Under the pieces are notes generated by a model. It was not told where the DNA came from. It worked only from the letters and a program-made list of their open reading frames with translations, and did no database searches. This document shows positions 16,582 to 27,823 of a stretch of 27,823 nucleotides of DNA, piece after piece (the first letter of the stretch is position 1; each line of letters begins with the position of its first letter). The stretch is from Deltaproteobacteria bacterium. Its GTDB lineage: Bacteria > Desulfobacterota > Desulfarculia > Desulfarculales > Desulfarculaceae. A program made the position numbers and the translations under genes. The DNA is taken from the NCBI GenBank assembly GCA_020444165.1, contig JAHLLK010000076.1, positions 1 to 27,823 on the forward strand, read 5' to 3'.

Positions 16582-16675
16582 GGAGAATTGGGAAGATGTG
16601 GGGGAAAACCCCTTTTTGTGAACAAAAAGGGGTTTTCCCCCACACCCCCTTTCCTCAAAAAAACTTTATAATTTA
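16582..16675 (+). terminator. Dispersed hairpin element, copy 1 (3' end of the CLC gene)
   Basis: A perfect 23-bp inverted repeat, 16597-16619 with 16622-16644, begins about 25 nt after the CLC stop codon. It is preceded by a CGGAG...GGAAGATG lead-in and followed by CCCCC, then CAAAAAAACTTTATAAT. The same lead-in, outer stem, loop and 3' flank recur at 22757-22844 (minus strand), and the same lead-in and stem are seen at 27772-27823. It lacks a U-tract directly after the stem, so it is not a standard intrinsic terminator, but the stem is strong enough to define an mRNA 3' end. Confidence 0.7.
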
Positions 16676-16733
16676 GGGTCTTGAGCAACGGTCTTCTTAG
16701 TCGTTACCCCTTGGCTTCCGGCCAGGGGCGAAA

Positions 16734-16759
16734 TTGTTGCCCCCCGCCTGTGCTATAAT
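16734..16759 (+). promoter_or_regulatory. Extended -10 promoter upstream of the two-helix membrane protein
   Basis: TGCTATAAT at 16751-16759 is a perfect sigma-70 -10 box with the extended TGn motif. TTGTTG at 16734-16739 is a possible -35, but the spacer is only 14 bp, so recognition probably relies on the extended -10. Transcription would start near 16766, about 47 nt before the ATG at 16813, and may cover the whole 16813-20699 unit. Confidence 0.6.
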
Positions 16760-16812
16760 CCCTTCACGAAGCCGGTCCCACGCCCAATTCCCAGCCAGCG
16801 AGGGAGGGGTCC

Positions 16813-17460
16813 ATGCCTACTGCGGCCGAGCGCTCTGCCGCCCGCCCCCTGGCCACGGGGGGCGAAGTCGTGGAGGAGGCGGAGCTCCTGGCTTGGAGCG
16901 TCAGCTATCCCCTGGTGGGCAATCCCTTTTTCGCCCGGGACATGCTGGCCGGTCTGGGTGCCTCCCTGGTTATCCTCTATTTAATATTGGCGGTGTTCCT
17001 GGCTCCGGCCGGCGGAGCCTGGGCAGTGGGCGTGATCCTGCCGGGGTTGCTCCTGATCATCGGGATTTTTTTCCTGGCCGTGGGCCTGTTCGTCTGCCTG
17101 GTGATCCTGGGGAACCAGGCCGACGCGTGGTACCGCCTGGACCCCCAGGGGGCGGGCTATCGCGCCGGGCCCCGGCTGCGCTCCATTTCGAACGCCGCCT
17201 CCCTGGGCAACCTGCTCACCGGGCAGCTGGGGCCGGCGGCTCTGGGCCGGGCCAGCCTGGAAAAACAGGTGGCCTGGGCCCGGGTGGAGACGGTGCGGAC
17301 CTCGCCGTCCCGGCTGGTCATCACCCTGGCCCGGGGCTGGCGGCCGCTCTTGCGGCTCTACTGCCCCGACGAGGCGGTGTATGCCCGGGCCCTGGCGGCG
17401 GTCCGGCGCCATGCCCCCGGGGCGGCGGGCGCCGGGGCCCCGACCCGGAAGCTGTTGTAA
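16813..17460 (+). CDS. Membrane protein of unknown function with two helices and a soluble C-terminal domain
   Basis: The 215-residue product has a soluble N-terminal stretch (about 45 residues with VSYPLVGNPFFARDML), then two strongly hydrophobic helices (about 47-68 and 71-98) separated by a short glycine-rich turn, and a basic cytoplasmic domain to the C-terminus. The latter contains a segment, EKQVAWARVETVRTSPSR, with alternating strands that recall PH-like membrane proteins of the YcxB/bPH type. That similarity is weak and I would not name a family. The ATG is supported by GGGAGGGG immediately upstream, and a good extended -10 promoter precedes it. The next gene starts 71 bp downstream on the same strand, so they may form one transcript. 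Confidence 0.78.
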   Translation: MPTAAERSAARPLATGGEVVEEAELLAWSVSYPLVGNPFFARDMLAGLGASLVILYLILAVFLAPAGGAWAVGVILPGLLLIIGIFFLAVGLFVCLVILGNQADAWYRLDPQGAGYRAGPRLRSISNAASLGNLLTGQLGPAALGRASLEKQVAWARVETVRTSPSRLVITLARGWRPLLRLYCPDEAVYARALAAVRRHAPGAAGAGAPTRKLL

Positions 17461-25193: not shown

Positions 25194-25756
25194 CAGGCTG
25201 GGTTCCTTCCATAATCCGGGCGGCCGGCCGGGCGCGGCCGACGCCCTGGAGGGGCTTAGATCGGTTATTCCAGGAGTTTACGAGACATATTGGAACACGT
25301 GAAGGTTACGAAAACGTGACGGCCGCGCGAAAAGGCGGGGGAGAATCCCCGGCCCCGGAGCCGGAGGAGCGGAAGGGTCCGGCCGGGCCGCGAGGATGCC
25401 GGGAAGGCAGCCCCGGCCGGCGCCGGTCGAAAGGCCGGGACCCCGGGGGGCGAGCCTCGCGGCCGGGTCTTTACCTGGCCAGGTTTGTATGGTAGCAATG
25501 AGACCGGATCGAACCGGACGATACCGCCCCGGCCTGGCGGCCGGCGGGAGGCTACGGACCGGCCTTTGATCCCCGCAAGTCCCCTGCATCCGAGCTGTAA
25601 TGCATAAACCGCGGCCAGAACCCCGGCGCGCCCCGGGCTCCGGCCGCTCTTGTCACGGGCCGGCCGCCATCGGCCCGGGGCTGCCAACCGCATTCCTGCG
25701 CCGCGCGGACCCGGCCTCCGCCCCCGCCGGCTCCGCCTTTTGCGAGGAGAACCGTC
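25194..25756. other. Divergent intergenic region between the EAL-CBS-GGDEF and transketolase genes
   Basis: There is no credible gene in 563 bp. It contains an A+T-richer segment at 25260-25320 in which TTACGA and ACGTGA each occur twice. A long G+C-rich stretch with several inverted repeats follows (25335-25450). A perfect 12-bp palindrome ACCTGGCCAGGT lies at 25473-25484, and CCGGATCGA / CCGGACGAT recur side by side near 25504-25521. Promoters for both divergent genes must lie here, and the palindrome is a candidate operator. I saw no match to c-di-GMP, cobalamin, TPP or glycine riboswitch core motifs. Confidence 0.4.
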
Positions 25757-27763
25757 ATGAGCCAAGAGGATCGCCGCCTGGATCAGCTCTCGGTGAGCAC
25801 CATCCGCATGCTGGCCGCGGACATGGTGGAAAAAGCCAACTCCGGGCACCCGGGCATGCCCTTGGGGGCCGCGCCCATGGCCTATGTGCTGTGGTCCCGC
25901 TTCCTCCGCCACAACCCGGCCGACCCGGCCTGGGCCAACCGGGACCGCTTCATCCTGAGCGCCGGCCACGGCTCGGCCCTGTTGTACGCCCTGTTGCACC
26001 TGACCGGCTATGACCTGAGCCTGGACGACCTGAAGGACTTCCGCCAGTGGGAGAGCCGCACCCCGGGCCATCCGGAGTACGGCGTGACCCCGGGGGTGGA
26101 GTGCACCACCGGGCCCCTGGGCCAGGGCTTCACCATGGGAGTGGGCATGGCCCTGGCCGAGCGCTTCCTGGCCGAAGAGTTCAACCGCCCCGGCCTGGAC
26201 CTGCTGGACCACTACACCTACGCCATCGTGTCCGACGGCGACCTCATGGAGGGCGCGGCCAGCGAGGCCGCCAGCCTGGCCGGGGCCCTGGGCCTGGGCA
26301 AGCTCATCTATCTATATGACGACAACCACATCTCCATCGAGGGCGGCACCGAGCTGACCTTCACGGAGAACGTGAACATGCGCTTCGAGGCCTACGGCTG
26401 GCACACCCTGTCCGTGGCCGACGGCAACGACTTGGAAGCCATCGCCGCGGCGATCACCGCGGCCCAACAGGTGACCGACCGCCCCAGCCTCATCAAGATC
26501 ACCACCCACATCGGCTGGGGCACCAGCAAGGTGGATTCGCCCTCCTGCCACGGCGAGCCCCTGGGGGCCCAGTGCCTGTTGGATTCCCGCAAGGCCATCG
26601 CCTGGCCCGAGGAGCCGTTCCACCTACCGGTCGAGGTCAAGGCCCACCTGGGCCGGGCCCGGGAGCGCGGCGCGAGGGCGCAGCAGGCCTGGCAGGACCT
26701 GGCGGCCAAGTTTGAGGCGGCCGACCCCGCGGCGGCGGCGCGCTTCCAGGAACAGATGGCCGGCCGCCTGCCCGCGGACTGGGACGCCGAAGTCCCGGGG
26801 TTCGCCGCGGCCGACGGCTCCCTGGCCACCCGGGCGGCCAGCGGCAAGGTCTTGAACGGCCTGGCCAAGCGGGTGCCGAACCTGGTGGGCGGCTCGGCCG
26901 ACCTGGCCCCCTCCACCAAGACCGTCATCGCCGGCAGCCCGGACCTGCGGCCCGGCCAACCCGCCGGCGGCCGCAACCTCCGCTTCGGGGTGCGGGAGCT
27001 GGGCATGACCGGGGTGGTCAACGGCATGGCCCTGCACGGCGGGGTGCTGCCCTACGGGGCCACCTTCTTCGTGTTCTCGGACTTCATGCGCCCCGCCCTG
27101 CGGCTCGCGGCCCTCCAAGGCTGCCACGCCATCTTCGTCCTCACCCACGACTCCATCGGGGTGGGCGAGGACGGCCCCACCCACCAGCCGGTGGAGCAGC
27201 TCATGAGCCTCCGGCTCATGCCCGGCCTCACCATCCTGCGCCCGGCCGACGCCAATGAGACCGCCGCGGCCTGGAAGACCGCGCTGCTCCGCCAGGGGCC
27301 GACCGTGCTGGTGCTCTCCCGCCAGGGGCTCCCCATCCTGGACCCGGCTACCCATCCCGTGGCCGCGGGCGTGCCCCGGGGCGGCTATGTGCTGGCCGAC
27401 TGCGAGGGCGCCCCCGAGGTGCTCCTCGTGGGCACCGGCAGCGAGGTGCACCTCTGCCTGGGGGCCCAGGCGGAACTGGCCGGCCTGGGCATCCGGGCCC
27501 GGGTGGTGTCCCTGCCTTCCTTTGAACTGTTCTACGAACAGGACCAGGCCTACCGTGACCAGGTGCTGCCCCCGGTGGTGACCGCCCGGGTGGCCGTGGA
27601 GGCGGGGGTCACCCTGGGCTGGGAGCGCATAGTGGGCGATCACGGCGCCATCATCGGCCTGGACCGCTTCGGCGCCTCGGCCCCGGGCAAGGTGGTGCAG
27701 GCCGAGCTGGGCTTCACCGTGGCCAACGTCACCGCCAAAGCCCGGCAGGTGCTGGGGCGGTAA
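25757..27763 (+). CDS. tkt: Transketolase
   Basis: This thiamine-diphosphate enzyme of the pentose phosphate pathway transfers two-carbon units between ketose and aldose phosphates. The full-length 668-residue product is typical of bacterial transketolases. Motifs in order are: KANSGHPGMPLG with a substrate/TPP-contacting His, SAGHGSALLYALLHLTGY, CTTGPLGQG, and the TPP/metal motif SDGDLMEGAASEAASLAG. DDNHISIEG, a HGEPLG segment, RFGVRELGM with the catalytic glutamate, and THDSIGVGEDGPTHQPVEQL follow. All three transketolase domains are complete. The ATG is supported by GAGGAGA about 8 nt upstream. It appears as a single gene with its own promoter in the preceding 560-bp gap and is followed by copy 3 of the dispersed hairpin. 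Confidence 0.97.
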   Translation: MSQEDRRLDQLSVSTIRMLAADMVEKANSGHPGMPLGAAPMAYVLWSRFLRHNPADPAWANRDRFILSAGHGSALLYALLHLTGYDLSLDDLKDFRQWESRTPGHPEYGVTPGVECTTGPLGQGFTMGVGMALAERFLAEEFNRPGLDLLDHYTYAIVSDGDLMEGAASEAASLAGALGLGKLIYLYDDNHISIEGGTELTFTENVNMRFEAYGWHTLSVADGNDLEAIAAAITAAQQVTDRPSLIKITTHIGWGTSKVDSPSCHGEPLGAQCLLDSRKAIAWPEEPFHLPVEVKAHLGRARERGARAQQAWQDLAAKFEAADPAAAARFQEQMAGRLPADWDAEVPGFAAADGSLATRAASGKVLNGLAKRVPNLVGGSADLAPSTKTVIAGSPDLRPGQPAGGRNLRFGVRELGMTGVVNGMALHGGVLPYGATFFVFSDFMRPALRLAALQGCHAIFVLTHDSIGVGEDGPTHQPVEQLMSLRLMPGLTILRPADANETAAAWKTALLRQGPTVLVLSRQGLPILDPATHPVAAGVPRGGYVLADCEGAPEVLLVGTGSEVHLCLGAQAELAGLGIRARVVSLPSFELFYEQDQAYRDQVLPPVVTARVAVEAGVTLGWERIVGDHGAIIGLDRFGASAPGKVVQAELGFTVANVTAKARQVLGR

Positions 27764-27771
27764 GATTCTTT

Positions 27772-27823
27772 CGGAGGAAGAGGAAGATGTGGGGGGAAGG
27801 ACCCTTTTTTGAAAAAAAGGGTC
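27772..27823 (+). terminator. Dispersed hairpin element, copy 3, cut by the window edge (3' end of tkt)
   Basis: After the tkt stop codon comes CGGAGGAAGAGGAAGATG, then GTGGGGGGAAGGACCC, a T-run, and the beginning of the returning arm (AAAAAAAGGGTC) up to the last base. Lead-in and outer stem match copies 1 and 2. The innermost arms GACCCTTTTTT / AAAAAAAGGGTC already pair, and the remaining arm and 3' flank lie outside the window. Confidence 0.65.

Follow-up and report, generated by a model that had tools for sequence, protein, structure and literature searches.

Several kinds of palindromic or mirrored repeat invite comparison with the elements described here. REP/BIME/REPIN repeats of E. 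coli are palindromic and extragenic, occur as inverted pairs in operon gaps and 3′ regions and are absent from divergent promoters; H-DNA involves mirror repeats within one homopurine-homopyrimidine duplex. TMECO repeats (also known as BoxC or PIT) are intergenic intrastrand triplex repeats of Enterobacteria that have been linked to genome instability (Holder et al., 2015; PMC4666352); the sections of that paper drawn on here describe them as dispersed, with some inverted tandems, and as a hairpin followed after a turn of three nucleotides (nt) by a third tract that makes purine-motif G.GC triplets on the G-rich strand, the stem being a single homopurine stretch of 9 nt with a 3-6 nt loop and no strand bias. 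Alternate-strand triplexes, in which the third strand lies on the purines of one strand and then of the other, are known in designed oligonucleotides, which are synthetic and peptide-assisted as PMC3660596 presents them in the part considered here. We analysed a stretch of 27,823 nt from a Deltaproteobacteria bacterium of the family Desulfarculaceae (contig JAHLLK010000076.1, positions 1 to 27,823; “the window” below), which carries three copies of a hairpin with a conserved flank, each 3′ of a stop codon and in the same orientation relative to the gene it follows. These hairpins belong to a large family located beside genes in sulfate-reducing bacteria, and each hairpin and its flank would together form a single unit, an alternate-strand version of an intrastrand DNA triplex motif. 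The best explanation overall, to which we give a probability of roughly 0.6, is a triplex unit that would act at the DNA level as punctuation of intercistronic gaps and gene ends.

The present elements share with TMECO the hairpin, the third tract set off by a 3-nt turn and compatible with triplets on the G-rich strand, and the intergenic, dispersed distribution with some inverted tandems. They differ from it in that the purine tract usually switches strands within the stem (so that most do not have the single-type purine stem with a short loop), that copies vary under the triplex rule, and that orientation relative to genes is non-random. The TMECO consensus (CCCTCNCCCN3-6GGGNGAGGGN3GGGNGAGGG) had no exact match on either strand of 269 sequences totalling 2,003,407 bases. 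The ITxF search, conversely, should miss most copies of the present family, because its settings as stated in PMC4666352 restrict it to a single triplet class in each stem and to loops of 1-6 nt; the text of that paper contains neither “desulf” nor “deltaproteobacter”. Mirror symmetry and triplex chemistry are shared with H-DNA, the difference being that the present motif would be a single-strand hairpin triplex with a strand switch; and unlike the alternate-strand triplexes of PMC3660596, as far as that source describes them, it is a natural repeat. A search of the open-licence PMC literature found no paper on natural alternate-strand intrastrand repeats.

The architecture is clearest in copy 1, on the plus strand. 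Its lead-in GGGAAGATGT (16590..16599) ends in TGT (16597-16599), which pairs with ACA at 16642-16644; the hairpin (16600..16641) has a 5′ arm at 16600-16618 (G5 A4 C4 T5 G), a TGAA loop at 16619-16622 and a 3′ arm at 16623-16641; the spacer ACA (16642..16644) makes a 3-nt turn between the stem and the putative third strand; and this third strand, CCCCCTTTCCTCAAAAAAAC (16645..16664), is a mirror of the 3′ arm, one edit away from the sequence that the triplex rule predicts from the stem. Only 1 of the 55,594 26-mers of the window comes that close, and it is copy 1 itself. That the 3′ flank mirrors the stem, and so reads as a third strand, was absent from the sequence-only reading that had first drawn attention to these hairpins; given this relation, the element is better described as an intrastrand triplex motif than as a simple hairpin.

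The same relation holds throughout the family. We collected elements with a scanner that looks for a hairpin with an outer G-run and then, after 1-4 nt, a second C-run; run on 102 sources, it returned 125 rows from 96 of them, or 121 elements after four overlapping readings were removed. When the 121 elements are aligned side by side, each flank is a mirror copy of its own 3′ arm under a few rules: the C block of the stem is mostly kept; the T block is one shorter (60/77); the junction G (the G-run beside the strand switch) becomes C at 213 of 253 aligned positions and is G at only 7; and the A-tract is copied, an isolated G inside it staying G in 23 of 26 cases. Hairpin and third tract are separated by 3 nt in 113 of the 121 elements, a spacing that the scanner tries first, and stems are perfect in 87. 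For example, the 3′ arm read backwards and the flank are CCCCCTTTGGAAAAAGAAA and CCCCCTTCCAAAAAGAAA in L116, CCCCCTCTTTGAAAGA and CCCCCTCTTCAAAGA in L191, CCCCCCTTCCCTTGAAAA and CCCCCCATCCTTCAAAA in L206, and CCCCTCCCTTTGAAA and CCCCTCCCTTCAAA in L262, which comes from the genome of L018, an uncultured Desulfovibrio (loci are numbered L, genomes G). At two places of genome G011 (L066:801-959 and L069:1406-1560) the 3′ arm is interrupted by a second hairpin, which separates the inner stem from the outer C-run.

As a statistic we used the edit distance between the flank predicted from the stem and the actual flank, for own versus shuffled pairings. Among 105 non-redundant copies the own flank is 1.60 edits from the prediction and shuffled flanks are 3.46 edits away (lowest of 2000 shuffles, 3.15); shuffling within genomes gives a mean of 2.87 and a lowest value of 2.47. 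A plain mirror without the rules performs worse (4.04 own versus 5.17 shuffled), and the Watson-Crick reading direction of the arm gives no signal (10.14 versus 10.15), for which reason an attenuator switch, with the flank as an alternative Watson-Crick partner, was discarded. Because the rules had been read from copies of this first set, 20 further regions were run with the rule frozen; 15 of them yielded 18 rows, or 16 copies once two overlapping readings had been removed by stem length, and here the own flank lies at 2.125 edits versus 3.56 for shuffled flanks, with none of 5000 shuffles as low. The scanner background is clean: loci from other phyla (264,242 bases) and 3-mer block shuffles (612,699 bases) yielded nothing, and 400 kb of genome G013 gave one hairpin, with no third-strand match. 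It is thus highly probable, judging from this covariation, that the elements are conserved for triplex complementarity.

The mirror relation leaves no Watson-Crick pairs possible between flank and arm, but it is the relation required of a strand placed in the stem’s major groove. The fit is best described on strand R, the strand opposite to the direction in which the hairpins were first read, where the order is a 5′ T-tract, a G-run, an A-run, G5, the three-nt turn, G5 A3 C3 T4, a tight loop, and A4 G3 T3 C5. The 5′ segment of strand R would occupy this groove, first antiparallel to the purines of the near arm (G.GC and A.AT triplets), skip one base at the strand switch, and then run parallel to the purines of the far arm, where the triplets would be G.GC in runs, T.AT, and C+.GC at an isolated G. 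The commonest base of every block on strand R gives a standard triplet, and the base skip, which is commonly observed, would be accounted for by the alternate-strand geometry. The two treatments of G also fit strand R, since simulations reported in PMC4807104, in the part of that work used here, found that a parallel triplex is disrupted by a lone G*GC among T*AT triplets and not by a single junction; if the other strand were the relevant one, the junction run should read G, as it does at the 7 of 253 positions mentioned above. Most stems switch the purine strand in the manner of G5A3C3T4; two (L022 and L053) have long homopurine arms.

Mismatches in the stems, 41 among 2081 pairs, are few; read on strand R they include 17 G.T and 6 A.C (one-sided p about 0.017, from small numbers), and read on the sense strand of the neighbouring gene there are 11 G.T, 12 A.C and 18 others. 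The sense strand thus has no G.U preference, and these small numbers contain no pointer to RNA folding as what is kept. The element probably acts as DNA, on strand R. Taken together, the sequence data suggest that the triplex forms and that evolution has been preserving a DNA triple helix; we would put at about even the chance of the fuller statement, namely that this is a natural family of alternate-strand DNA triplexes whose third strand has a readable code and which selection maintains, in Desulfarculales and Desulfovibrio relatives, in the gaps of operons and at the ends of genes.

A number of points weigh against this interpretation. Two features are conditioned by the scanner, namely the second C-run, which it demands, and the 3-nt spacer, which it tries before others; the T, G and A blocks are not. 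In the comparison of 1.60 with 3.46 edits the four overlapping readings had been resolved in the rule’s favour; with all 125 rows left unfiltered the values become 1.81 versus 3.59 (lowest 3.27; n = 109), and with overlaps chosen by stem length instead, 1.68 versus 3.50 (n = 105). The rule was derived from and tested on the same copies, the later 16 excepted; the regions of that later set were picked by a model containing the consensus flank, 5 of the 20 gave no element, and four of its genomes (G003, G004, G014, and G207) were already represented in the first set, by different copies. Shuffling also overstates independence, because the copies share ancestry. Within the window, copy 2 follows the triplex rule in part only, and of 12 loci taken from 24 genomes reached through named loci (see below) the scanner found an element in 7 and none in 5. 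Eight identical copies in one genome are a recent dispersal, which a selfish element would be expected to show too. The triplex structure is deduced from sequence, and the function from position alone; for TMECO/PIT, the passages of PMC4666352 drawn on here note that no promoter or terminator activity had been found earlier.

In the window, copy 2 is on the minus strand. Its hairpin (22788..22830) has a 5′ arm at 22830-22816 (G6 A2 G4 T C2), a weakly paired inner part (22815-22803) and a 3′ arm at 22802-22788, followed by an ACA spacer (22785..22787) and a third strand, CCCCCCATCCCCCAAAAAAC (22765..22784), that fits the G6 A2 G4 part of the stem and is weaker beyond it; it is 4 edits from the prediction, a closeness reached by 15 of the 55,594 26-mers, or by 7 of the 637 that start with CCCC. 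Copy 3 (27782..27823, plus strand) is cut by the end of the window: it shows the lead-in, G6 (27791-27796), T6 (27805-27810) and the start of the 3′ arm, which is incomplete, and its third strand would fall past the window end. Compared with shuffles, the folds have z scores of -5.7 (copy 1), -5.0 (copy 2) and -1.1 (the cut copy 3, equalled by 28 of 200 shuffles). As the sequence-only reading had held, the inner stems of copies 1 and 2 differ, and both arms change together. It had also claimed a common lead-in beginning with CGGAG; the lead-in, GGAAGA in the window copies, is indeed shared, within a 13-mer (GAAGATGTGGGGG) that is exact in all three, a number of occurrences to be compared with a maximum of 1 and a mean of 0.002 in 500 3-mer block shuffles, but copy 2 reads AGGAG, overlapping the stop codon, instead of CGGAG. 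When up to two mismatches are allowed in GAAGATGTGGGGG there is a weak excess: 4 matches where 1.51 are expected, a count that 6 of 100 shuffles also attain.

The three genes that precede the copies agree, by Pfam and by coordinates, with those originally named: a CLC chloride channel with a CBS domain 5′ of copy 1 (14746..16572, plus strand), an EAL-CBS-GGDEF gene 5′ of copy 2 (22845..25193, minus strand), and a transketolase 5′ of copy 3 (25757..27763, plus strand). Downstream of copy 1, at 16700-16812, a TATAAT-like box is seen by eye ahead of the next gene (ATG at 16813; no Pfam match), and because this box and then the next gene follow, copy 1 may close the CLC transcript. The closest named protein relatives of the window are proteins of Desulfarculaceae and of a Desulfarculus metagenome-assembled genome (MAG), at 60-62%. 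The left end of the window (1-295) is made of a tandem repeat that runs up to that end: an 85-nt unit is present there three times or more, with 83-85% likeness over 125 nt.

To follow the family beyond the window, we scanned GTDB genomes for the EAL-CBS-GGDEF gene, which led to loci named Desulfarculaceae, Desulfarculus, and Desulfocarbo and through them to 21 genomes of the order (the order name, Desulfarculales, is here taken from the names of those loci). Searched for in 12 relatives, the exact lead-in GAAGATGTGGGGG is at chance level (5 matches versus 4 for a reversed control pattern), and the strict combination of lead-in and C-run was found in none of the 21 genomes and in no viral contig; the exact lead-in is therefore not widely common. 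One exact match, L058, had the whole architecture and is a true relative; its genome, G011, is that of L013 (Desulfarculus sp. isolate M71). We then relied on a covariance model built from eight copies, including copy 1 and leaving out copy 2, since MAFFT misaligned its inner stem. In the window the model gives E-values of 1e-22 for copy 1, which it contained, and 2.9e-13 and 4.2e-7 for copies 2 and 3, which it did not; a weak match at 1623-1684 is by eye no copy, and a search of the window alone against Rfam 15 gave no match at the gathering score.

At E ≤ 0.01 the model matches in 17 of the 21 genomes of the order, with 129 matches in G011, 100 in G005 and 1-35 in the others, and with none in G016, G009, G020, and G022; these counts cover both strands of a palindrome, with at most 150 candidates scored per genome, and are not copy numbers. 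At the level of the phylum, where filters were stricter and 19 candidates were scored per genome, matches at E ≤ 1e-4 occur in 25 of 247 genomes, of which seven belong to the order. The 24 genomes reached through named loci include 13 from Desulfovibrio, Pseudodesulfovibrio, other Desulfovibrionaceae, Desulfonauticus, a delta-proteobacterium and one “Proteobacteria” MAG; 12 of these 13 match, the exception being Desulfonauticus. Of the remaining 11 genomes one matches, that of Brevibacillus borstelensis, and there at one place. The best matches of G182 among named proteins are to Desulfovibrio (61%); G212 is a Thermodesulfobacteriota MAG. The idea of a dispersed and non-random family whose flanks are conserved, as first proposed, is thus supported, with matches in the order and in Desulfovibrio relatives. 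The position of copy 2 is probably not old, since 12 relatives inspected by eye have no element directly after the orthologous EAL-CBS-GGDEF gene, and among 32 loci the model finds one near that gene only in L022 and L053. These two related elements, at L022:8249-8324 (a Desulfovibrionaceae MAG) and L053:5177-5251 (an IMG/VR contig), have the long homopurine arms mentioned above and lie near the 3′ end of the gene.

With genes called by our own dicodon gene caller, all 121 elements fall outside called genes. In 89 of 121 cases (median distance 17 nt) the hairpin side is turned towards a stop codon and in 32 (median 31 nt) towards a start codon, so that the tie to gene 3′ ends claimed for the window copies holds for the larger part of the family and fails for the rest. 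The 92 regions with elements comprise 61 codirectional, 28 convergent and 3 divergent gene arrangements (binomial p 2.3e-6, divergent versus convergent); in one of the divergent regions (L230) the called gene is 2,490 nt away. Orientation is non-random without being fixed in the sense proposed, since all 18 regions with two elements contain an inverted “+-” pair in which the two third strands point towards one another. Should such a pair be the unit, a short gap would force its outer ends up against both genes, and this would explain much of the fixed orientation. The other 74 regions have a single scanner element, although at least one of these (L118) is really a pair whose partner the scanner missed.

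Sixteen of the 18 double regions are codirectional, typed by family search (11 regions) or orthology (5). Their gaps are leuC|leuD (2), methylmalonyl-CoA mutase N|C, two Sdh_cyt proteins, cobB-like|cbiC, RNase Y|YmdB, nrdD|glutaredoxin-like (4; the small protein was named by eye and has no NCBIfam match), thiolase|acyl-CoA dehydrogenase (2), hemB|ychF, aminotransferase|homoserine dehydrogenase, CoA-ligase|GAPDH, and acyl-CoA dehydrogenase|sulfatase. Several of these gene pairs are textbook operon partners, and such element pairs are probably intercistronic, not full stops; the idea that the elements only mark the ends of transcription units was dropped because probable operon partners flank several pairs. 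The likeliest action of a triplex unit in these places would be to impede or partly attenuate RNA polymerase, or to decouple neighbouring genes; the niche would be comparable to that of REP/BIME repeats in E. coli. Attenuation of the polymerase in particular is, on this reading of the positions, a tentative suggestion.

Among the alternatives, the one that survives best is a selfish or mobile palindromic repeat (REPIN- or MITE-like), in which the inverted pair would be the unit, its structured ends would be recognised on single-stranded DNA by a protein acting in trans, and the bias to gene edges would reflect tolerance of insertions in operon gaps and 3′ regions. All 18 double regions being “+-” and the absence of insertions inside called genes agree with this, and like REP/BIME/REPIN repeats the present elements are palindromic and extragenic, with inverted pairs in operon gaps and 3′ regions and a near absence between divergent genes. 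A GTAG or CGTC tag at one end is a further trait of REP-type repeats; the window copies have GGAAGA as their lead-in. In G013, moreover, eight copies are identical in stem and third strand, one differing in the loop, and their shared sequence starts at or within about 16 nt of the hairpin base: these copies (L177-L180 and L182-L185) are one end of a longer dispersed repeat, about 700 nt of which align between several of them, with internal sub-repeats and, in one copy, a masked stretch. On the other hand, the Y1 (RAYT-type) transposase associated with REP/REPIN systems does not track copy number: it is present in 11 of the 21 genomes and does not follow the match counts per genome, with 100 model matches in G005, which has no Y1 candidate, and none in G020, which has one. 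The long G5A3C3T4-type stems with a third strand also set the family apart, and 28 codirectional stop-facing elements have no scanner partner (at least one, L118, has a partner that was missed).

The same loci are, furthermore, occupied in different genomes. Six genomes (G003, G006, G011, G013, G018, and G019) have an element just upstream of the same glutaredoxin-like gene, their proteins being 73-94% identical, and four of them (G006, G011, G013, and G019) have another after nrdD, the gene that precedes it; at the upstream site stem and third strand covary, the junction runs being C3/G3 in G013, C4/G4 in G003, and C5/G4 plus a C in G011. For 88 reciprocal ortholog pairs, an element is at the stop codon in both members of 15, in one member of 6 and in neither of 67; at the start codon the numbers are 18, 2 and 68, the sampling in each case being centred on elements and so favouring “both”. 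Allowing for that sampling, we consider a purely selfish repeat rather unlikely.

Termination was among the functions first proposed, as a lineage-specific terminator, and a terminator or bidirectional insulator of transcription units would suit the ties to gene ends and the near absence of elements between divergent genes. Canonical terminators, by our own definition, are also scarcer within 110 nt of element ends (2/61) than of other ends in the same loci (29/197) or in a G013 sample (27/119), although the element itself occupies most of the 110 nt searched. An intrinsic terminator is a GC hairpin with a U-tract immediately behind it, read along the gene; here, as had been seen from the start, no U-tract follows, and the flank reads C-run, T, C, A-tract in that direction. 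A nested minimal terminator in the 5′ arm (GGGG-AAAA-CCCC-TTTTT) was rejected because single-C copies keep the T-run yet cannot form it. Inverted pairs between probable operon partners, such as leuC|leuD, methylmalonyl-CoA mutase N|C, the Sdh_cyt pair, cobB-like|cbiC, and RNase Y|YmdB, speak against a terminator; we consider this explanation unlikely. Further hairpins accompany some elements: 9 of 28 singles have a further perfect hairpin of at least 9 bp before the next gene, and in L107, L102, L115, L114, L120, L210-L213, L215, L224, L225, and L231 a second perfect or near-perfect hairpin begins a few bases after the third strand, in some pairs between both third strands and in some singles (L224, L225, and L231) followed by a T-rich stretch, an arrangement that also tells against the element itself as the terminator.

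An RNA-level element, that is, a 3′-untranslated or intercistronic hairpin, possibly an RNA triple helix, that shields mRNA from exonucleases, would draw on the very stable RNA folds of copies 1 and 2 (-50.7 and -52.6 kcal/mol) and on the location beside gene ends and in codirectional gaps. We regard it as quite unlikely: besides the sense-strand mismatches described above, half of the motif on the F strand would need A.A-U and C opposite G, and the elements occur in both senses relative to neighbouring genes. Finally, palindromes perfected by template switching with no selection on structure, as the 87 perfect stems and the ability of quasi-palindrome correction to alter both arms at once might suggest, are very improbable, since template switching gives inverted copies, and what the flank shows is mirror copying, a skipped base and a code that depends on context.

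Whether DNA triple helices act in cells is a long-standing question. The evidence offered here for the triplex unit is of the type that served for tRNA and rRNA structures, a three-way covariation in which the third strand follows the stem by rules consistent with triplex chemistry. The family provides many natural test sequences in culturable sulfate reducers, on which a break-and-restore design would be straightforward, and a class of intercistronic repeats that differ from the known REPs may find its explanation here. If the interpretation is true, sequence evolution itself would be reporting a functional DNA triple helix in living bacteria.

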